Assembly: GCF_036898465.1 (NCBI RefSeq)
Contig: NZ_JARUMJ010000001.1
Location: 8,680,001 to 8,744,000 of the forward strand
Direction: 5' to 3'
Origin: Streptomyces sp. B21-105
GTDB lineage: Bacteria; Actinomycetota; Actinomycetes; Streptomycetales; Streptomycetaceae
Length of the DNA: 64,000 nucleotides
Below the pieces are notes generated by a model. It was given only the letters and a program-made list of their open reading frames with translations, was not told the DNA's origin and did no database searches. A program made the position numbers and the translations under genes. Within the stretch, counting starts at the first letter, position 1. The number at the start of each line of letters is the position of its first letter. Of this stretch, positions 636 to 42,681 are shown piece by piece.

Positions 636-658
636 TTGTCAGTGGTCGCCGCTAAGTT
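636..658 (+). promoter_or_regulatory. RecA-NDp/PafBC-type DNA-damage promoter
   Basis: TTGTCAGTG at 636-644, eight spacer bases, then TAAGTT at 653-658. This matches the actinobacterial RecA-NDp consensus (TTGTCRGTG-N8-TANNNT), which in mycobacteria is used by the PafBC activator after DNA damage. Transcription should start near 665, about 80 nt before the SWIM gene start, so the promoter would drive the whole 746-8271 operon. The match is seen directly; the regulation is inferred. Confidence 0.65.
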
Positions 659-745: not shown

Positions 746-2707
746 GTGTTCTCGGACCGGGAGAACTGGGAGAGGGCGAGCACGGCCCGGGTGGTGCCGC
801 CCGCCCGGCCGCGCAAACTCGCCAAGGTCCCCTTCGTCGAACTGGCCGACGGACGCCTGCAGGGCGTCGTCTCCAGCGGCTCGGACATCGAGCGGGTGTA
901 CGTCTCGTCGGTCGCCGCCGGCACCTACGCCTTCGCGTGCAGCACCAACAACAACCGGCCCTGCGGCGGCGCGCGCGGCTCGTTCTGCAACCACATCCGC
1001 GCCCTGATCACGGAGGCCGTGCTGCAGTACGGCGCCGACCGCGTCGCCCGCTACCTGCGCGTGGAGCCCGCCGGCCCGGAGACCGACGCCGGAGCGCTCG
1101 CCGTCGCGATGACCGGCGCCCGCCCGCCCCAGGCGGACGGCAAGGCGACCGCCGCCCCCGTCTTCAGCAGGTTCCTGCGGCACCTGGCCTACCTGGAGCT
1201 CGCCCCCGTCACCGTGCCGCTGCCGGAACTGCAGTGGTTCCCGCCGACCCGCGCGCAGACCGCCCCGGCGGCGACGGCCCCGGCGGCGACCGCGCACGAT
1301 CCCGAGGCCGGTCAGGCGGCGCGAACCGAGCGTACCGCCGCACCCGTCGAAGGGCTCGACGAGGCGCTGACCGCGGTCGACGCCTTCGACCACGCCCTCG
1401 CCGCCGGTCTGCTGCGCCCCCGCCCCGACCGGGTCGGCGGACTCGACGGCCTCGCCCGCGCCGTCTGCGGCAGCCCGCTGGCCGCACGGGTGGCGGAGGC
1501 GGCCGAGAAGGCCGCGGCGGGCTCCGCGAGCGAGGACCACCTTCTCGCCCTCGCCGCCGCCCGCGCGGCCCTGCTGGGCGCCGTGCACGACGCTCTCGTC
1601 GTGTGCGCCGACGAACTGAGCGGCCGCCTCCGCGAGGAGCCCGCGCAGACGACCGCCGGCCCGCGCACGACGGTGAACCTGATGGCGGCGGCCCGCACCT
1701 GGCTCGCGGACCTCGCCCGCACCGGCTGGCAGGGCATCGACCACGAACTGGCCGGCGGAGCCGCCCCCATCGTCTCCGCCATGCTGCCGGAACCCGGACT
1801 GCGCCGACTGGCCACCCTGCTCGACGGATTCGCCGCGGAACTCGCCGCCTCGTGCCCCGGTGCGGCCCTCGAACACGTCCCGGAGCGCCGCTGGGCCGAC
1901 CTGTGGTCCCGCGCCCTGCTGCTCACCGCCCCCGGTACGGCCGACACCCCCGTGGCCCGCGCCGCCACCGGCCGGCTCCTGCCGCTCGGCGTCGACCTGC
2001 ACGAACACGCCACCGCCGCGCAGGCCCAGGTCCACGCGGTCTTCGAACCGGCCGACGGCAGCGCGCCGTTGCTGGTCCGCGCGAGCGTCTCGGCGCCGAA
2101 GCCGGACACCGTCGTCGCAGCCGGCGTCTGGCAACTGCTGCGGCCGCACCTCTCGCTGCTCACCGCCCTCGGCGAGGGCCGGTCGATGGAACTCGACGCC
2201 ATGCCCCTCACCGACGAGGGCGACCTCCTCTGGGACGACACCCGGGCCCGCCCGGGGGACCCCGCCGACGCCCTCGCCACTGCCCGGGTCGTCCTGCCGG
2301 CCGCCGTCGCGCTGCCCACCGCGCCCCTGAACCGGCATCCGGCGCGCCTCGCGGAGCCGGTGTTCCTGGAGGGCTACGACCGGCGCCAGGAGGGCGACGC
2401 CGTCATCTTCACCGTCGCCGGCCGCGATCTTCCCGTCGACACCGACCGCATCCCGGCCGCGGGGCCGCTCACCCCCGAGGCCGTGGCCGGCTCCCGCGCC
2501 TGCGTGGGCCTGCTCCGCTGGGACGACGGGGGGCTGCGTCTTCAGCCGTTCGCCGTCGAGACCACCGTGCGCAGGAAAGCCGTCGCCCTGCACGCGGGCG
2601 CGTGGGCCGGCGGCACCGCCGACAAGGCCGGCGCCCGGGCCGAGAAGGCCGCCACCGACGCCGTCACCGTCCTGCGCGAACGGGCGGGAAGGCTGCTGCG
2701 GAAATGA
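746..2707 (+). CDS. SWIM zinc-finger-like protein (YehQ-type), first gene of the vWA/MoxR operon
   Basis: Predicted 653 aa. Cys65, Cys73, Cys81 and His83 form a C-x7-C-x7-C-x-H cluster ending in FCNHIRAL, which resembles the CxCx(n)CxH SWIM motif of nucleic-acid or protein binding modules. The rest is a long, mostly alpha-helical Ala/Leu-rich region with no motif I recognise. GTG at 746 is chosen because AAAGGAG lies 5 nt upstream; the frame is open back to 680 but lacks a better ribosome site. The stop overlaps the next ATG by 4 nt. The order SWIM, vWA, AAA, DUF5682 matches the component types of E. coli yehQ, yehP, yehL and yehM, whose function is unknown. The SWIM call is less certain than the operon assignment, because the first two cysteines are spaced more widely than usual. 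Confidence 0.75.
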   Translation: MFSDRENWERASTARVVPPARPRKLAKVPFVELADGRLQGVVSSGSDIERVYVSSVAAGTYAFACSTNNNRPCGGARGSFCNHIRALITEAVLQYGADRVARYLRVEPAGPETDAGALAVAMTGARPPQADGKATAAPVFSRFLRHLAYLELAPVTVPLPELQWFPPTRAQTAPAATAPAATAHDPEAGQAARTERTAAPVEGLDEALTAVDAFDHALAAGLLRPRPDRVGGLDGLARAVCGSPLAARVAEAAEKAAAGSASEDHLLALAAARAALLGAVHDALVVCADELSGRLREEPAQTTAGPRTTVNLMAAARTWLADLARTGWQGIDHELAGGAAPIVSAMLPEPGLRRLATLLDGFAAELAASCPGAALEHVPERRWADLWSRALLLTAPGTADTPVARAATGRLLPLGVDLHEHATAAQAQVHAVFEPADGSAPLLVRASVSAPKPDTVVAAGVWQLLRPHLSLLTALGEGRSMELDAMPLTDEGDLLWDDTRARPGDPADALATARVVLPAAVALPTAPLNRHPARLAEPVFLEGYDRRQEGDAVIFTVAGRDLPVDTDRIPAAGPLTPEAVAGSRACVGLLRWDDGGLRLQPFAVETTVRRKAVALHAGAWAGGTADKAGARAEKAATDAVTVLRERAGRLLRK

Positions 2708-4314
2708 GCGACGACATGCCGGAAACGGTCCACCCGGTCCCCCCGGTCCCCCCGGTTCCCCCGGTTCCCCCGGTTCCTCCAGTTCCCACGGTCATCGCAG
2801 ACACCGTGGTCCCCGACGACAACCGCCGCCAGGTTCTCTACTGGCGGCTGCTGGCCCGGCTCTTCGACCCCGAGGAGCAGATCGCGCTGGAGTCCGCGAG
2901 CCTCGCCGTCGTCGAGGACATCGGCCTGCCGGCCGCCCTGCTGGACCCGCAGTCCTCGGTGGACTCCCTCGTGCAGCGTCACCCGGAACTCGCCTCGGAG
3001 TTCGACGGGTTGATTGTCCCCGAAGCCGAAGCCGAAGCCGAAGCCGAAGCCGAAGCCGAAGCCGAAGCCGAAGCCGAAGCCGAAGCCGTAGCCGTAGCGG
3101 TAAGCGAAACCGAACCCCAAGCCCAAGCCCAAGGAGAGGCCGGAGCCGGAGCCGGAGACGTCGGCGGCGACGGCCGTGACCGTGGCGACGAGGTGCGGCG
3201 GGCCGCGCTCGTGTCCAAGGTGCTGCTCAACGTCTTCGCGACGGGCGCCGGAGCCGTCAGCGCCGAGCAACTGTCGCGCTGGCAGAGTGACGCCGGCTGG
3301 CTGGAGCGCGCCCTCGGATGCCGCCCGGGCGAGCTGCGCGGCGGCCGGGGCCCGGCCCCCGGCGCGGGCGGCCTCGTCCCCGGCATAGGTCCGGAACTGG
3401 CCGACGTGGAAGCCGACCTGGTGCGGCGCATGCACCTGCGGGAAGTGCTCGCCGACCCCGCACTGGCCGCGCGGCTCACCCCGAGCATGTCGCTCGTCGA
3501 GCAACTGCTCCGCGACAAGAACAACCTCTCCGGTGTCGCTCTGGCCAACGCCAAGGCGCTCATCCGCCGTTTCGTCGACGAGGTCGCCGACGTGCTGCGC
3601 ACCCAGGTGGAGAAGTCCACGGCCGGCGCGATCGACCGCTCGGTGCCGCCCAAGCGCGTTTACCGCAACCTCGACCTCGACCGGACCGTCTGGAAGAACC
3701 TCACCAACTACAGCCCCGAGGAGGAACGCCTCTACGTCGACCGCCTCTACTACCGGCACACCGCCCGCAGGACGACGCCACAGCGGCTCGTCGTGGTCGT
3801 GGACCAGTCGGGCTCGATGGTCGACTCCATGGTCAACTGCACCATCCTGGCGTCGATCTTCGCCGGACTGCCCAAGGTGGACGTGCACCTGATCGCGTAC
3901 GACACCCGGGCGCTCGACCTCACCCCCTGGGTCCGTGACCCGTTCGAGGTGCTGCTGCGCACCAAACTCGGCGGGGGGAACGACGGCCCGGTCGCCATGG
4001 CCATGGCTCGCCCGAAGATCGCCGAGCCCAAGAACACCGTCATGGTGTGGATCTCCGACTTCTACGAGTTCGACCGCTCCCAGCCGCTGTTCGAGGGCAT
4101 CGAGGAAGTCCACCGCTCCGGCGTCAAGTTCATTCCCGTCGGCTCGGTCACCAGCTCCGGCCGGCAGGAGGTCAACCCCTGGTTCCGGGAGCGGTTCAAG
4201 GCGCTCGGCACACCCGTGATCTCCGGCCGCATCGACAAGCTCGTCCACGAGCTCAAGACGTTCCTCACCCGATCCGCACCCGCACACCCCGCATCCCGAA
4301 AGGCCTCCCGATGA
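2704..4314 (+). CDS. von Willebrand factor A domain protein (YehP/CoxE type)
   Basis: Predicted 536 aa, starting in an ATGA overlap with the SWIM gene. The C-terminal third is a vWA domain with the metal-binding DxSxS motif at Asp367-Ser369-Ser371 (VVVVDQSGSMV), followed by a GGGNDG segment and a VMVWISDFYEF strand. Such domains pair with MoxR AAA+ ATPases, and the ATPase is the next gene. Residues about 10-28 are a Val-Pro-Pro repeat from 9-nt DNA repeats. Residues about 107-130 are a Glu-Ala run from a 6-nt repeat. Both lie in the otherwise variable N-terminal region and keep the frame, so they probably act as spacers. Probably a metal-dependent scaffold that recruits substrate to the ATPase (inference). 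Confidence 0.85.
   Translation: MSDDMPETVHPVPPVPPVPPVPPVPPVPTVIADTVVPDDNRRQVLYWRLLARLFDPEEQIALESASLAVVEDIGLPAALLDPQSSVDSLVQRHPELASEFDGLIVPEAEAEAEAEAEAEAEAEAEAEAVAVAVSETEPQAQAQGEAGAGAGDVGGDGRDRGDEVRRAALVSKVLLNVFATGAGAVSAEQLSRWQSDAGWLERALGCRPGELRGGRGPAPGAGGLVPGIGPELADVEADLVRRMHLREVLADPALAARLTPSMSLVEQLLRDKNNLSGVALANAKALIRRFVDEVADVLRTQVEKSTAGAIDRSVPPKRVYRNLDLDRTVWKNLTNYSPEEERLYVDRLYYRHTARRTTPQRLVVVVDQSGSMVDSMVNCTILASIFAGLPKVDVHLIAYDTRALDLTPWVRDPFEVLLRTKLGGGNDGPVAMAMARPKIAEPKNTVMVWISDFYEFDRSQPLFEGIEEVHRSGVKFIPVGSVTSSGRQEVNPWFRERFKALGTPVISGRIDKLVHELKTFLTRSAPAHPASRKASR
2736..2789 (+). repeat. 9-nt tandem repeat coding for Val-Pro-Pro
   Basis: Six adjacent 9-nt units of the form GGT(C/T)CCCCC, the last degenerate, at the 5' end of the vWA gene. 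Each unit adds three residues, so copy-number change would alter the length of a proline-rich tail without shifting frame. Confidence 0.85.
3022..3087 (+). repeat. Hexanucleotide microsatellite (GAAGCC) x11
   Basis: Eleven perfect copies of GAAGCC, followed by degenerate GTAGCC copies, encode a Glu-Ala run inside the vWA protein. The unit is a multiple of three, so slippage changes the length of an acidic linker but does not switch the gene off. Confidence 0.95.
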
Positions 4315-5435
4315 CCGACCTGCTGCGCGCCCCCGCCGAACTCAAGTACGCCGAGGAACTCGACTGGCTGGAGTCGATCGACGACAACCCCAAGCCGTTC
4401 TGCTGGCGGCTCTCGCCGAAGATGGTCCGGCTGTTCGTCCTCGGCTCCGAGCGCGCCGACGGCCTCGACCGGGAGATCGCCCAGAAGTGGTTCGGCGACC
4501 GCAGCTTCGTCGAGCGCTCCATCGTCACCCTCGCCTCCGACCGCGGCCTGCTCCTCATCGGCGACCCGGGCACCGGGAAGAGCTGGCTGGCCGAACTGCT
4601 GTCGGCCGCGATCTCCCGCAACTCCACCCTGGTCGTGCAGGGCACCGCGGGCACCACCGAGGACCACATCAAGTACTCGTGGAACGTCTCGATGGTCATC
4701 GCCAAGGGCCAGTCGAGGGAGTCGATGATCCCCTCGCCGATCATGACCGCCATGGAGACCGGCGCGATCGGCCGCTTCGAAGAGCTCACCCGCTCCACCA
4801 GCGACGTCCAGGACGCGCTGATCTCGATCCTCTCCGAGAAGTACATCTCCGTCCCGGAGCTGGGCAGCGACCGGGACAGCGACAACATCGTGTTCGCCAA
4901 GCCCGGCTTCTCCGTCATCGCCACCGCCAACAGCCGCGACCGCGGCGTCAACGACCTGTCCTCGGCGCTCAAGCGCCGCTTCAACTTCGTCCGCATCCCC
5001 GTCGTCACCAACAAGAAGAGCGAGGCGGAGATCGTCCGCTTCCGCACCGAGGAACTGCTGCGCCGCCACCGCATCGAGCTGGACGTCCCGCCGACCCTGC
5101 TCGACGTGCTGCTGCAGAGCTTCGCCGACCTGCGGGCCTCCTCGGCGGCCGCCGGCAGCGACGACGAGAAGCTGGAGTCCGCCCTGTCCACCGCCGAACA
5201 GATCGGCGTCCTCGAGGACGCCGTCCTGCACAGCAACTTCTTCGGCGAGCGCGCCCTCACCGCCCGCACCCTCGCCTCCTCCCTCGTCGGTTCGCTGGCC
5301 CGGCGCGCGCCCGAGGACCTCGCCATCCTCAACAAGTACCTGCATGGCGTCGTCGAACCGCGCAGCAAGGAGCAGGGCGGCTCCTGGCCCGAGTTCCTCG
5401 AGGGCGGCCGCGACGCCATCGCGACCCTGTCATGA
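4311..5435 (+). CDS. MoxR-family AAA+ ATPase (YehL type)
   Basis: Predicted 374 aa, close to the family norm. Walker A is GDPGTGKS at residues 84-91 (Lys90). A sensor-1-like VIATANSRDRG and an ALKRRFNF arginine-finger segment follow; the region between Walker A and sensor 1 contains IGRFEELTRS where Walker B is expected. MoxR ATPases act as chaperone-like remodelers together with vWA partners, here the preceding gene. It starts in an ATGA overlap with the vWA gene, with GAAAGG about 9 nt upstream, and its stop overlaps the DUF5682 start in the same way, so it is probably made in fixed ratio with its partners. The substrate is unknown. Confidence 0.85.
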   Translation: MTDLLRAPAELKYAEELDWLESIDDNPKPFCWRLSPKMVRLFVLGSERADGLDREIAQKWFGDRSFVERSIVTLASDRGLLLIGDPGTGKSWLAELLSAAISRNSTLVVQGTAGTTEDHIKYSWNVSMVIAKGQSRESMIPSPIMTAMETGAIGRFEELTRSTSDVQDALISILSEKYISVPELGSDRDSDNIVFAKPGFSVIATANSRDRGVNDLSSALKRRFNFVRIPVVTNKKSEAEIVRFRTEELLRRHRIELDVPPTLLDVLLQSFADLRASSAAAGSDDEKLESALSTAEQIGVLEDAVLHSNFFGERALTARTLASSLVGSLARRAPEDLAILNKYLHGVVEPRSKEQGGSWPEFLEGGRDAIATLS

Positions 5436-6913
5436 GCGGCGCCTTCGACGCCCTGCGCGGTCAACTGCACGAGGCCGCCACGGCGTTCGCCGACGGACCC
5501 GGAGCCCTGGAGGGCATCCTGCGGGGGATCGTCGACGACGTCGAGCGTGCCGTGCGCGAGCCGCTGGAGATCTTCCCGGTCTGCCACCACTCGCCGGCCT
5601 CGGCGATCGCCATGGCGCGCCGGCTGCGCGAGAAGCAGCCGAAGGTGGTCTACCTCGAGCTGTGCGAGGACATGGCGCCGCTCCTCACCGAGCTGCGCAA
5701 CTGCCGTCTGCCGGTGGCGGTGCAGTCCTTCGCCACCGAGATCGAGGGGTTCCCCGCCGACTGGTCGCCGCTGTCGGTGGTCGCGCCGGTCACCGAGGCC
5801 TCCGCCGAGTACCAGGCCATCGCCTACGCCCTCGACACGCCGGGCGTCGAACTGATCCTCGTCGACCGCTCCTCCGACCACGTCTTCCAGTGGGAGGCCG
5901 ACACCGGCACCGACGCCGAGGCCGACACCGGGGCCGACGCCGAAGCCGGCGCCGGCGCCGACCTGCCCGAGACGCAGGAGCAGCCGGCGGCCCTGCACGG
6001 CGACGCCGTCGGGGTGGAGATCGGCGACCTGCGCCCGCGGTTCGCCGAGCTGGAGGAGCACCTGCTGCGTCACGGCAGGGTGCGGCACTGGTCGGAGTGG
6101 TGGCACCAGTACGTGGAGCTGCCCCTCGGCGACAGCGACCACGACACCTACCGTCAGGTGATGCTGCTCATCGGCAGCCTCTTCCGGCGTCTCGCCCCCG
6201 GCGACCCCGGCAGGGTGCGGGTCGACGAGGACCGCGAACGGTACATGTGGACGAGGATGCGCGAGCACCTCGCCGCCACCGGCGCCGACCCCGCCGACTG
6301 CCTCTACGTCTGCGGCGCCTTCCACGCGGCCAGCCGCGTCGCTGAGTTCGGCGTGCACGGCAGCGACGGCTTCGTCATCAGCCCGCCGAGCGGCACCCGA
6401 TGGCGGCACGGCCTCATCCCGTCCAGCCACGCGGCGATCGAGGCGCAGTTCGGCCTCGCAGCAGGCTCGGTGTCCATCGCGGCGGCGGAATGGGCGAAGA
6501 ACGTCAAGCGCACCGGCGTCCCCCCCTACCGCCTGGACGGCCAGGCGGGCACGAAGAAGACCACCAGGAAGACCACGCAGCCGAAGAAGGCCCCGCCCGC
6601 CGCCGCCCCGGAACCCGCGCCCCCGCCCGCCGACCGGCTCACCGGCTTCCTCCGGCGCCCGCCCGCCCTCGACGCCCTCGACGAGGCGGAACTGCTGGGC
6701 TGGTCGGTGGAGATCGTGCGGGCCGCCCGCCGGGGCGGCTACCTCGCCTCCACCGCCGACGCCATCGCCGTCTTCGAGACGTCCATCCTGCTCGCCGGGA
6801 TGCGCGACCGCGCCAAGCCCACTCCGTACGACTTCCAGGACGCGGCCGTCACCTGCATAGAGAAGGACGCCGTGCCGGCCGCCGGGACGTGGGCCGGCTC
6901 GTCGAGATCATGA
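5432..6913 (+). CDS. DUF5682 protein, N-terminal part (YehM type; TIKI/TraB-like motifs)
   Basis: 493 aa before an early stop. Visible motifs in order: FPVCHHSPASA (His52, His53), a strand ending YLELCED (Glu76), LILVDRSSD, and VCGAFHAAS (G-x-x-H, His298). His, Glu, Asp-Arg and GxxH in this order resemble the TIKI/TraB/EreA hydrolase superfamily, so I suggest a metal-dependent hydrolase fold (inference). A DTGTDAEADTGADAEAG linker and a Lys/Pro/Ala-rich stretch separate later parts. The last residues before the stop look out of frame, while the +1 frame continues as GRRDVGRLVEIM into the next ORF. Adding one base in 6875-6886 would give one 946-aa protein, so this is probably half of a frameshifted gene. 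Confidence 0.75.
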   Translation: MSGAFDALRGQLHEAATAFADGPGALEGILRGIVDDVERAVREPLEIFPVCHHSPASAIAMARRLREKQPKVVYLELCEDMAPLLTELRNCRLPVAVQSFATEIEGFPADWSPLSVVAPVTEASAEYQAIAYALDTPGVELILVDRSSDHVFQWEADTGTDAEADTGADAEAGAGADLPETQEQPAALHGDAVGVEIGDLRPRFAELEEHLLRHGRVRHWSEWWHQYVELPLGDSDHDTYRQVMLLIGSLFRRLAPGDPGRVRVDEDRERYMWTRMREHLAATGADPADCLYVCGAFHAASRVAEFGVHGSDGFVISPPSGTRWRHGLIPSSHAAIEAQFGLAAGSVSIAAAEWAKNVKRTGVPPYRLDGQAGTKKTTRKTTQPKKAPPAAAPEPAPPPADRLTGFLRRPPALDALDEAELLGWSVEIVRAARRGGYLASTADAIAVFETSILLAGMRDRAKPTPYDFQDAAVTCIEKDAVPAAGTWAGSSRS

Positions 6914-8271
6914 TGGGCGGCGACCGCCTCGGCCAGGTCGGCTACGACGCGCTGCCGCCGCTCGCCCGCGAGGTGCACGACCGCCTCGCCCCGCTGAACC
7001 TCAGGCTCGAGCAGCGCGGAGTGCAGCGCGCCCTGCTGGACATCGCCTCCCAGCCGGACCTGGCGCACTGCTCCGACCTGCTGTGGATGCTGCGCCGGCT
7101 GCTGCCGCAGGGCGCCGCCCGGCCGATCATGGGCGAACTGCGGCTCGGCGAGCGCTCCGTCCAGGAGTCCTGGGACCTGGCGCTGGGCACCCATCAGCGC
7201 GCCCTGATCGAACTCGGCTACGAGGGCGTCAGCATCGAGCAGGTCCTCGAACAGCGGCTGCGGCGCGCCGCGTACGCCCCGCAGGCCACCGCGGCAGAGG
7301 TCCTCGAGGCCGTCGAGGACGCCACTCTCTACCTGCGCAGCCGCCGCCTCGCCGACGAACTGGGCACCCGCGCCCTGGAGGTGCTGGCCCACGAACGCTC
7401 CGTCGACGGGGCGCCGGAGGTGCTGCGCCGCGTCCGGCGGCTGCTGGCGTACTACCGCACCGCCGAACCGGTCCTGCCGCCCTGGATCGAGTCCTTCGTC
7501 AAGGCGGGCTACGCGCACTACTGCACCCTGCTGCCGACGGCGTTCACCGACGAGGACGCGACCGTCCGTCAGGTCGCCGCGATGCTGGGCTTCCTGTTCG
7601 GCATGGAGAGCCTCGCGCTGTCACTCGGCTGCGACCGGGCCCAGCTGGAACTGTCCCTCGCCCAGTCCCATCCGACGGACCCCGCGCGCACCGCACTGCT
7701 GTGGGCGGCCCAGACCCACCTGGGCACACTGCCGAGGCCGCAGCTGCGGGCGCGCTGCGACGAGCTGCTCGGCAATCCGCTGGTGGTCCCCTCCTACCCT
7801 CGCTACCTCAGCGGGTTCGTGCACGCCCTGGAACCGGTGCCGGGCCTGGCCGACTTCGTCGTCGAGGCCGTGTCGAACGCGTTCGCCCGCCTTCCCGACC
7901 GGGTGCTGCTGCCCTGGCTGCCGACGCTGATCGGCACGCTGCGCGCCGGCGGCGCCGAGCAGGCGCCGCTGCTGATCCGCGAGGCCGGCCGGGTCTTCCC
8001 CGCCCGGCTGCCGGAGCTGGACGCCTGGGTGCCGCCGTGGCGGCTGCCGCAGGACCCGCCGGGCGTGCGTCCGCGGGTCGGCGAGGAAGCCGGAGGCGGC
8101 GCCGTGCTGCCGCTCCTGGCCGCCCACCCGGCGGTCTGCGACGCCCTGGCGGACCTGCTGGGCTGCGAAGCGGAGTGGGAGACCGCGGGGCCCGCCTCGT
8201 CCGGAGCGGTCCTCCTCGGCCGCCATCCGGCCACCGCCACCGCGCTGGAGGAGCTGCTGGCCGTCAGCTGA
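6910..8271 (+). CDS. DUF5682 protein, C-terminal part (probably continuous with the preceding ORF)
   Basis: 453 aa if started at ATG 6910, which overlaps the previous stop as ATGA. The sequence is alpha-helical and well conserved in character (GDRLGQVGYDALPPL, QESWDLALGTHQRALIELG), with no membrane segment or enzyme motif I recognise. Two readings are possible. It may be a separate, translationally coupled fifth gene, since every junction in this operon is ATGA. Or it may be the C-terminal half of DUF5682 after a one-base deletion. I favour the second: there is no good ribosome site, and the open frame upstream of the ATG (GRRDVGRLVEI) reads as coding sequence continuing the conserved CIEKDAVP segment. 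Its 3' end overlaps the convergent gene by 8 nt. Confidence 0.65.
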   Translation: MMGGDRLGQVGYDALPPLAREVHDRLAPLNLRLEQRGVQRALLDIASQPDLAHCSDLLWMLRRLLPQGAARPIMGELRLGERSVQESWDLALGTHQRALIELGYEGVSIEQVLEQRLRRAAYAPQATAAEVLEAVEDATLYLRSRRLADELGTRALEVLAHERSVDGAPEVLRRVRRLLAYYRTAEPVLPPWIESFVKAGYAHYCTLLPTAFTDEDATVRQVAAMLGFLFGMESLALSLGCDRAQLELSLAQSHPTDPARTALLWAAQTHLGTLPRPQLRARCDELLGNPLVVPSYPRYLSGFVHALEPVPGLADFVVEAVSNAFARLPDRVLLPWLPTLIGTLRAGGAEQAPLLIREAGRVFPARLPELDAWVPPWRLPQDPPGVRPRVGEEAGGGAVLPLLAAHPAVCDALADLLGCEAEWETAGPASSGAVLLGRHPATATALEELLAVS

Positions 8272-9833
8272 CAGGCAGGGACGACGTGACCAGGCGGCGG
8301 ATCGCGGAGGCGGTCAACGCCGGGTTCGCGGCGGCGTGGTGGACCAGCTCCTCGTCCTCGAGGAGCTGTGTCAGCCGAGGCCCGGGGAGGTTCGGGTGGC
8401 GGGCGAAGGCGGCCCGCACGGCGGGGTCGGGGTCCCGGGTGAGCCGCTCCACGGTGTGCGGTGCGGTCCCGGGATCGCGGGCGGCCAGCCGGCGGACGGC
8501 AGGGTCCGCGTCGTCGGCGTGGGCGGCGAGGCCCTCGCTCGGGAAGCCCGGCCGGGTCAGGAGACGCTCGCGTTCGTCGCCGGTGTACTCGAGGAAGCAG
8601 CGCAGCAGCAGTCCGGCCGGGGGGTGCGGGTGGTTCTGGGCCAGCAGCACACGGACGCCGAGGTCGTCGTCGGCGGCCAGCAGGGCCACCAGGTCGGAAG
8701 GCAGCGTGCGCTCCGTAGCGGCGTCCCGCCGCAGCAGCGGGTGGCCGGAGAGCGCGTCCCGGCGGACGGCCCCGGCGTCCCGCGGCGTCGCGGAGCAGTA
8801 GCGGAAGCCGAAGTCGCCGTGCTGGGACACCTGGTAGTCGATGGCGGACCGTTCCCGCTCGCTCCAGGCGGGATGGACGGAGACGGACAGGCGCACTCGG
8901 GGATCGGGGTCCGCGGCGAGGGCGGCACGCTCGTCGGGCCGAGGCCGGGGTGCCGGGCGATCGTCCGGCGTACCCCCGGGTCGGCATCCTCGACGAGGGC
9001 CCGGCGTTCGGCGGGCTCGAGGTCTTGCCGGCCCGCGATCTCCCGCCGGACCTCCGGATCCGCGTCGCGGGACAGCAGGGCCACGACGTCGGGCGGAAGA
9101 CCGGGTTCCTCGCGATCATCGACCGGTCGTCGGGGCCGGCCGGGGCGGTGAGGACGCCGTCCACCACGGCTCTGCTGAGCGCGCGGTGGAGCAGGGCGTC
9201 GGTGCGGGCGTGGCAGGAGTGCGGGGGCAGGACGCTCTCCACCCACGCCGGATCCTCCTCCCGCGCGTTGCGCTCGGCTCTCTCCCGCACCTCGTCGTCG
9301 GGGTCGGCCAGCAGGGCGGCCCGCGTCCGGGCGGGGAGAGAGCTCCAGGGCCCGGTTCCCCAGAGCCGGACCTTCGCCACCGGGTGCGTGGACATCGACC
9401 TTTCGAACGCGGCGGACATCTGCCGGTAGAAGAAGCCGCCGAGGAGTTCGTTCTCGTAGGTGGTGATCATGTGCACGACTGCGTCGTCGGGCAGTGGTGC
9501 GACGTCGTCGAGACCGGTCACCCGTGGCCCGTCGGCGAGGTGGGCGCGGACGATCCAGTCCGGGTCCGTCAGCAGCCGTGCCCGTGTGCGCGGCTCGACA
9601 TGGGGGTTGCGGGCGAAGAAGCTGCGCGTGTACGCGTCGGGATGCTCGACGACGGCGTCCACGACGGCGTCGGGCAGGAACCGGTCCCGGCACAGCACCA
9701 TCCGTACCGCGAGCGGTGCGTCCGCCAGCAGCCGCAGCAAGAGGTCGACCGGCGTGGACGGATTGAGCGCGAGCCCGGCCAGCCGCCGGGTCGGCAGATC
9801 GGTCCCGGCCCAGATGTCGTCGGGCGTGGGCAT
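8264..9833 (-). pseudogene. Leucine-rich-repeat-variant-like repeat protein with two frame breaks
   Basis: Three overlapping frames together encode a repeat protein. Units of about 24 residues recur with the pattern Asp-Pro-x-Val-Arg (ADPDDEVRERAERN, DADPEVRREIAGRQ, DADPGVRRTIARHP, DPDPRVRLSVSVHP), typical of leucine-rich repeat variant or HEAT-like solenoids. The frame is lost once near 9101-9105 and again near 8936-8940. One extra base at each point gives an uninterrupted 523-aa protein from ATG 9833 (AGGGGA about 7 nt upstream) to the stop at 8264. Both breaks are single-base losses in G/C runs, so sequencing error is as likely as decay. Probably a protein-interaction scaffold; partner unknown. 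It converges on the DUF5682 gene with 8 nt overlap. Confidence 0.75.
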
Positions 9834-9904
9834 GCGCGGTCCCCCTGGAGAGGTGTGGGCCCCCTGCGTGGGCATGGTCCCCTGGACAGGCGGGCCCTTG
9901 CACA

Positions 9905-9940
9905 GTCATGGGCCCCCTGCGGTGGCAGGGGGCCCATGAC
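9905..9940 (-). terminator. Perfect 16-bp stem-loop after the tandem GH43 gene
   Basis: Arms 9905-9920 and 9925-9940 are fully complementary with a GGTG loop. It lies 38 nt past the GH43 stop (minus strand) and upstream of the repeat-protein gene, so it should end transcription of the large gene. No U-tract is seen, as is common in Streptomyces. Confidence 0.75.
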
Positions 9941-15155: not shown

Positions 15156-15503
15156 GGGGGACCGCCGTTTCAACCGTGTGACGTGATGTTGCAGGAGTGT
15201 CAAACGTTGTGCATGGTCGCGTCAAGGCGTATCGAACGATGTCCGACAGGTCGAACGGTGGGAGTTGTGTCCAGGGAGCGGGCCGACGGTCGAGTCGAGG
15301 ATCGCAGCCGGGCGGTCAGCGCCCGCCACCAGGGCGGCGAGGCCCGCGGGGCTCTCGCTCGCGACCAGAAGGACCGAGGCGATCCACCGGACTCCGCCGA
15401 GCCGGTGCCCGACGCTGTGGGGGAGGGTGGATCGGCGCGGCGGCCGCCTGGCCGAGACACCATCCGCCGTCCCGCCTCCTCCATCAGTACACGGCCGGAA
15501 GGC

Positions 15504-36100: not shown

Positions 36101-36123
36101 ATGTCAGTGGCTGCGCCTACGGT
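36101..36123 (+). promoter_or_regulatory. RecA-NDp/PafBC-type promoter upstream of the WGR gene
   Basis: ATGTCAGTG (36101-36109), eight spacer bases, TACGGT (36118-36123). There is one mismatch to TTGTCRGTG-N8-TANNNT, with exact spacing. The predicted start near 36130 leaves a 50-nt leader before ATG 36179. It resembles the sites before the SWIM operon and the DNA ligase. Confidence 0.55.
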
Positions 36124-42658: not shown

Positions 42659-42681
42659 TTGTCAGTGGTGGCGGGCAGGAT
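42659..42681 (+). promoter_or_regulatory. RecA-NDp-like promoter giving a leaderless ligase mRNA
   Basis: TTGTCAGTG at 42659-42667 is identical to the site before the SWIM operon. After eight bases comes CAGGAT (42676-42681), a weak -10. The expected start, 6-8 nt downstream, coincides with ATG 42689, so the mRNA would be leaderless. Confidence 0.55.

Follow-up and report, generated by a model that had tools for sequence, protein, structure and literature searches.

This analysis concerns a 64,000-nucleotide stretch of the genome of Streptomyces sp. B21-105 (assembly GCF_036898465.1, contig NZ_JARUMJ010000001.1, positions 8,680,001 to 8,744,000, forward strand), hereafter the window, and within it an operon of five open reading frames (ORFs) that spans 746-8271 and lies behind a promoter of the RecA-NDp/PafBC type. 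The ORFs are joined by an ATGA overlap at each junction (2704, 4311, 5432 and 6910). An original prediction, made from the letters of this stretch and its ORFs, had named vWA, AAA+ and DUF5682 genes with ATGA joins, and ORFs and Pfam matches bear this out, except that the DUF5682 gene is not intact. Pfam searches with the five ORFs gave no family for the first (746-2707) or the last (6910-8271). The features are:

636-658, plus strand: RecA-NDp/PafBC-type promoter, TTGTCAGTG-N8-TANNNT, an exact match, 87 nucleotides before the GTG start
746-2707, plus strand: fused first gene with GTG start; an N-terminal Cys-rich SWIM-like module of about 167 residues and a module of about 465 residues, family unknown
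938-994, plus strand: Cys motif CSTNNNRPCGGARGSFCNH (codons within the first gene), C-x7-C-x7-C-x-H
2704-4314, plus strand: CoxE-like vWA protein (PF05762, E 2.2e-29), ATGA overlap on both sides, with a low-complexity (EA)n stretch
3802-3819, plus strand: metal-ion-dependent adhesion site (MIDAS) motif DQSGSM in the vWA gene, present in 80/80 relatives
4311-5435, plus strand: MoxR-type AAA+ ATPase, YehL-like (AAA_5, PF07728, E 1.7e-38)
5432-6913, plus strand: N-terminal part of DUF5682 with a putative TIKI-like domain (PF18934, E 1.2e-17); a premature TGA ends the ORF
6868-6913, plus strand: stretch where DUF5682 goes out of frame, with a one-base difference from both closest genomes at 6874-6878
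6910-8271, plus strand: C-terminal part of DUF5682, out of frame; helical in the model of an intact ortholog

The relatives counted here and below, loci of class A (the window-type operon), are the top 80 out of 549 that were confirmed. The consensus TTGTCRGTG-N8-TANNNT was taken from the original prediction and scanned with the reversed pattern as control, and the claimed promoter at 636-658 turned out to be the sole exact match in the window; with up to two mismatches there are six matches against 1.22 expected. Two further sites with one mismatch lie on the plus strand at 36101-36123 and 42659-42681. The comparison of orthologous loci, which had been set beforehand as the refutation test, favored the original prediction. 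It covered 77 operons (the 80 loci minus two without a SWIM hit and one without upstream DNA), and the motif was exact in 67/77, had one mismatch in 8/77, two in 1/77 and four in 1/77, so that 75/77 are within one mismatch; the reversed control never came under three mismatches upstream of these operons. As the loci share descent, the 77 counts are not independent trials. The ortholog set is mostly from Streptomyces, but includes Kitasatospora, Actinacidiphila, Saccharopolyspora, Streptoalloteichus, Actinophytocola and Goodfellowiella, and the 8-base spacer varies among the orthologs while the fixed motif bases persist. A tile scan over both strands of the 80 loci (2.59 Mb of strand) yielded 80 tiles with a match at one mismatch or fewer, comprising the 75 operon promoters and only 5 sites elsewhere. 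No LexA-type box within one mismatch was found near the window promoter or in any relative (0/76), the best match having four mismatches in the window and two in 8/76 relatives; this test is weak, because with the consensus that was used the recA locus itself reached only two mismatches.

The same motif marks a wider set of genes. In the 9.2-Mb genome there are 31 exact sites and none for the reversed pattern, and no fewer than 13 of these sites stand before genes of repair, replication or helicases, namely those for uracil-DNA glycosylase, RuvC, a DSHCT helicase, two RecD2-like proteins, UvrA, UvrB, Ogt, UvrD/PcrA, XseA, RecA, by our reading a DinG-like helicase, and a DnaN paralog. The Pfam follow-up covered 18 sites besides that of the window, with ORFs chosen by codon-position GC content, and as these 18 were picked after their translations had been viewed, 13/31 is the fair figure. 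The remaining five of the 18 precede the first genes of two paralogous loci, a SUKH-4 gene, an AAA_16 gene and a gene without family; the other 12 sites, read by us without a Pfam scan, include one before a gene for an MFS transporter and one before a sigma factor gene; for three of the 12 there is no convincing ORF. The site before a DNA polymerase III beta-clamp-like gene is exact at G000:C1:5809226-5809248 (L147), and that before the gene of a SUKH-4 immunity-type protein is exact at G000:C1:3724773-3724795 (L138). Among nine WYL matches there is a pair of adjacent same-strand WYL domains, 1 kb apart, at C1:2121874-2123070, near the motif-bearing DSHCT helicase gene, and this pair is consistent with PafB and PafC.

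From these sequence comparisons, damage regulation of the operon is very probable, and control of the PafBC type can be strongly inferred. A RecA-NDp promoter before SCO6735 and its orthologs has been aligned with the recA promoters of S. coelicolor and M. tuberculosis (PMC5087735), and we set this alignment against the report on S. venezuelae in which an initial search suggested a lack of conservation of the PafBC motif of M. smegmatis (PMC9380542). For a M. smegmatis pafBC mutant, altered (negative-fold) levels are listed for MoxR1 and MoxR2 as well as for a single von Willebrand factor protein (PMC5656591). No paper found in the open-licence literature searched places a MoxR/vWA/DUF5682 operon in the PafBC regulon. 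That the promoter match could be incidental and the operon free of damage regulation, as might be argued from the S. venezuelae search (PMC9380542), is very improbable given the near-constant ortholog sites, the sites at both paralogous loci and the behavior of the reversed control.

The genome of the window harbors two further MoxR/vWA/DUF5682 loci, B and C, each with an exact motif site. Locus B encodes a DUF4132 protein, a 1,668-residue protein without Pfam family, an AAA+ protein and a fusion of DUF5682 with vWA, all behind the exact site. Locus C is divergent, with SWIM-DUF5691 in one direction and AAA+-DUF5682-vWA in the other; the exact site faces SWIM, and the AAA+ side has a site with one mismatch (CA for TA). 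Paralog promoters across the genus were counted at 30 loci per class, out of 37 matches for C and 40 for B. On the SWIM side of locus C, 28/30 sites are exact and 2/30 have one mismatch, and on its AAA+ side 25/30 have one mismatch, while locus B shows 15/30 exact sites, 10/30 with one mismatch, 4/30 with two and 1/30 with three; the reversed controls at the locus B and C promoters never came under three mismatches. Seven of the 30 locus B promoters upstream of DUF4132 (L197, L199-L204) carry TTGTCACTG in place of TTGTCAGTG, a common variant. The replacement of TA by CA in the -10-like element on the AAA+ side of locus C (L155:1077-1099 in one case) recurs in 25/30 genomes and may create a weaker site. 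Upstream of the locus C SWIM gene (L156-L185), the motif ends 7-8 nucleotides before the alignment start in 27/30 cases, and this suggests that the transcript is leaderless or nearly so. Other genera of the bacterial class were covered with 23 of 29 matching non-Streptomyces genomes, the six left out being those whose match starts only at residue 68 or beyond: in 13/23 the SWIM gene has a site with two mismatches or fewer, 12 of these 13 sites end 13-17 nucleotides before the aligned start, and the reversed control gave 0/23.

The fourth and fifth ORFs (5432-6913 and 6910-8271) are two halves of one DUF5682 gene. The original prediction had counted a single intact gene and thus overlooked a frameshift: the frame is broken in the window, whereas the corresponding aligned region is open in 80/80 relatives (in some cases the locus itself stops before the end of the gene). 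A programmed frameshift was rejected in view of the open frame in all relatives. The window shows other private one-base differences from both closest genomes at about 8935 and about 9102, in the neighboring gene, and near 15158, and for this reason an assembly error or a recent local decay, between which we could not choose, is probably the cause rather than a biological device. As the gene is frameshifted in the assembly, the copy as written may lack a full-length DUF5682 protein.

An alignment of 54 DUF5682 proteins, which included 42 of the 76 complete class A proteins together with proteins of classes B and C and E. coli YehM, contains eight residues that are invariant in 54/54, namely H52, H53, E76, D145, R259, E260, G286 and H289 in the numbering of an intact ortholog. 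The DUF5682 Pfam model, searched with hmmscan against whole proteins, matches only 15/54 of these members; the intact ortholog of genome G013 scores 99 bits to the model. Loci B and C as well as E. coli clearly show the layout G-x-x-H ... E ... G-x-x-H, which is the signature of the TIKI/TraB/ChaN/Ere superfamily. Pfam matches to members of this superfamily stayed below threshold (ChaN PF04187 in 2/54, E 0.086; TraB PF01963 in 1/54, E 0.071). The AlphaFold2 model of the G013 ortholog (mean predicted local distance difference test score, pLDDT, of 76; predicted template modelling score, pTM, of 0.69) has an N-terminal core of alternating beta and alpha elements, mostly of high pLDDT, and a long helical C-terminal half, and the invariant residues lie at or near strand ends. 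Judged by motif layout and model, DUF5682 somewhat more probably than otherwise holds a TIKI-like domain. The fusion of DUF5682 to vWA in locus B supports a physical coupling of the two proteins.

In relatives, the first gene is usually two genes: it is split in 61/80, fused in 15/80 as in the window, and not scorable in 4/80, and the usual operon of relatives therefore has five genes. The split form encodes a protein of about 167 residues, followed by one of about 465 residues whose start overlaps the preceding stop. Three Cys columns and one His column are invariant in 18/18 aligned small proteins (18 of the 61 split proteins), one of which, from L106, has one additional residue in the second C-x7 spacer. 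The claim of a SWIM gene found no profile support, only the conserved C-x7-C-x7-C-x-H. SWIM by homology was dropped after the Pfam SWIM profile matched neither the 18 relatives at E<=10 (0/18) nor the window ORF, and after hhalign with the true SWIM protein of the paralogous locus C gave a probability of 0.5%, i.e. no relation. The AlphaFold2 model of the first gene has three strands followed by a helix and thus resembles SWIM, at low confidence (pTM 0.35); the alignment for the second model comprised 15/15 fused proteins, 14/61 N-terminal and 21/61 C-terminal proteins and the window. The most that can be said is that the small Cys-rich protein is SWIM-like.

The motifs of the remaining two proteins are intact, and the Walker A motif GDPGTGKS of the AAA+ ATPase is, like the MIDAS motif, present in 80/80 relatives. 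In the vWA gene, short repeats at 2730-2795 and 3028-3100 encode (VPP)n and (EA)n, and several insertions and deletions relative to the two closest relatives fall inside these repeats. The next gene (8264-9909, minus strand) is also split over two frames; it is leucine-rich-repeat-variant/HEAT-like, with a PF01816 match (E 1.2e-6) on one part.

Class A is patchily distributed, being present in 35/150 Streptomyces genomes at 87-100% identity, and its flanks are variable: the 70 upstream regions fall into 42 connected groups, the 76 downstream regions into 52. Due to this patchy presence and the many neighborhoods, class A looks like a mobile cassette that carries its own promoter. The SWIM gene of locus C is found in 37/41 genomes of the genus sample and the locus adjoins ORFs that we read as sucCD-like, while the DUF4132 gene of locus B is found in 38/101. 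Beyond the genus, DUF5682 occurs in 10/149 genomes of a phylum sample and in 2/14 control genomes, E. coli and Deinobacterium chartae. Plasmid copies in Deinococcus taeanensis, Hymenobacter and Rhizobium comprise a SWIM/DUF5691/AAA+/DUF5682/vWA set, the order on the D. taeanensis plasmid being SWIM-DUF5691-AAA+-hypothetical-DUF5682-vWA. On the Hymenobacter plasmid (L251:3174-6203), SWIM and DUF5691 are apparently fused in a protein annotated as DUF5691. Searches in D. taeanensis for the radiation/desiccation response motif gave 0 sites with at most three mismatches, and a weak operator-like site lies about 20 nucleotides before the SWIM gene, with 5/17 mismatches to the consensus used; no alphaproteobacterial LexA box was found near the Rhizobium operon.

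Taken together, we propose that the operon is a damage-inducible, self-contained cassette that encodes a MoxR AAA+/vWA remodelling machine, and we assign to this reading, including the steps proposed in the following, a probability of about 0.5. DNA damage would activate PafBC, which would recruit RNA polymerase to the RecA-NDp promoter, as the conserved motif and the repair-gene regulon suggest. The AAA+ ring and the vWA protein would form a pair of chaperone and co-chaperone in which the MIDAS of vWA docks the client, as can be expected from their families and intact motifs, and a function as remodelling pair would be in line with other MoxR pairs (PMC3893208). DUF5682 could be the dedicated partner, with an N-terminal putative hydrolase of the TIKI/TraB/ChaN-like type and, after it, a helical solenoid by which partners or clients are held, and the Cys-rich SWIM-like protein might direct the machine to a nucleic acid or protein target. 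The machine could then dismantle or cleave proteins left on damaged DNA, or activate the hydrolase there, although a hydrolase action on proteins at damaged DNA can be put forward only tentatively. Of the damage-induced remodelling or hydrolase machine in the original prediction, the regulation is thus supported by sequence (orthologs, regulon, paralogs and WYL pair), while the machine is plausible in view of the MIDAS, Walker A and DUF5682 residues and the fusion, yet unproven.

Several observations weigh against parts of this proposal. On the side of regulation, the class A locus L064 has no motif match at up to two mismatches, several of the 31 genomic sites precede genes without evident repair role, and the S. 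venezuelae search (PMC9380542) belongs here as well. The AAA+ side of locus C lacks a site closer than four mismatches in 5/30 cases, 10/23 of the distant SWIM loci have no match at up to two mismatches, and the opposite strand of these 23 distant regions carries a two-mismatch site in 2/23. On the side of the machine, the DUF5682 gene of the window itself is broken, 44/54 proteins, those of class A included, have P in place of the first G of G-x-x-H, and there is no significant match to a TIKI profile, with unrelated families scoring as well or better (e.g. DUF3606 in 5/54, best E 0.037); moreover, the structure comparison of the DUF5682 model listed matches of the C-terminal half only.

What alternatives exist for a damage-induced remodelling machine? 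The AAA+/vWA pair could be a dedicated maturation chaperone that, like CbbQ/CbbO, NorQ/NorD or CoxD/CoxE, carries out the assembly of, or the insertion of a cofactor into, a single enzyme needed after damage, either DUF5682 or a repair enzyme. The maturation of specific complexes is the presumed task of MoxR proteins (PMC3893208), the vWA protein of the operon is of the CoxE type, and DUF5682 accompanies the pair in 80/80 class A loci and is fused to vWA in locus B; however, the loci show no hint of a metal or cofactor pathway and offer no named client, and we regard such a specialized chaperone as unlikely. Improbable, too, is that the operon is an anti-invader (anti-phage) conflict system, in which MoxR/vWA would be a threshold switch armed by the damage regulon upon phage or plasmid attack and DUF5682 the effector. 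The patchy presence of class A (35/150) and its very variable flanks would suit such a system, as the cassette seems to move, and MoxR-vWA ternary conflict systems with the same MoxR AAA+/vWA core have been described in actinomycetes (PMC8195603), but PADLOC matches are weak (best mad8, E 3.8e-6, for the AAA+ protein), and the Pfam hits of the five window ORFs include none of the described third components or effectors of the VMAP/iSTAND/TERNS3 type, which the library may not include. The near-universal presence of locus C (37/41) beside sucCD-like ORFs is also more like that of a housekeeping locus.

Genes of this type span several phyla, and under the names yehL/M/P/Q or DUF5682 we found no role for them in the open-licence literature. 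That three paralogous loci of one genome lie behind the same promoter type as recA and uvrAB gives them a direct functional hypothesis, supplies a condition for phenotype tests and points to a predicted active site, and it bears on the existence of a LexA-independent damage response in Streptomyces, which according to PMC9380542 is still to be shown. It might even be, although we consider this doubtful, that MoxR/vWA/DUF5682 (the yehLMPQ family) is a core, previously unrecognized arm of the DNA damage response that is governed by unrelated regulators in different phyla (in Actinobacteria by PafBC, in Deinococcus through the radiation-response motif). The machines would then apply a hydrolase of the TIKI type to proteins at sites of DNA damage, and part of the copies would be mobile cassettes with their own damage promoter.

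How does the operon compare with known systems? With the RecA-NDp/PafBC regulon of Actinobacteria (PMC6789036, PMC8223512, PMC5087735) it shares the motif, behind which recA, uvrA and uvrB are also found in the window genome. The invariant His and Glu residues and one basic residue of DUF5682 resemble the set of His, Glu and a basic residue that was reported for a TIKI enzyme (PMC6254334) of the TIKI/TraB/ChaN/erythromycin-esterase superfamily, and DUF5682 differs from this superfamily in its only sub-threshold profile matches and in the change from G to P in class A. In D. deserti, the putative five-gene operon Deide_18730-18690, with a MoxR-like AAA+ and a vWA gene, lies behind a radiation response motif (PMC2669436), i.e. 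in a damage regulon unlike that of PafBC, and this points the same way as the damage reading. The other genes of that operon could be those for SWIM, DUF5691 and DUF5682, and if they belong to the same operon type, two unrelated damage regulons own it. To the YehL subfamily, one of seven MoxR subfamilies (PMC3893208), the operon may be likened for its AAA_5-type ATPase beside a vWA gene.

The closest counterpart in a model organism is the E. coli MG1655 locus yehI(DUF4132)-yehK-yehL-yehM-yehP-yehQ, which brings together DUF4132, MoxR AAA+, DUF5682, vWA and SWIM genes. The match to yehQPLM that had been claimed for the window thus holds for the gene set, which the E. coli K-12 locus has, but not for the gene order, and the first gene of class A is not recognizable as that of a SWIM protein. 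E. coli is not known to have a promoter of the RecA-NDp type. Its YehM protein, annotated as uncharacterized, carries all eight of the invariant DUF5682 residues.

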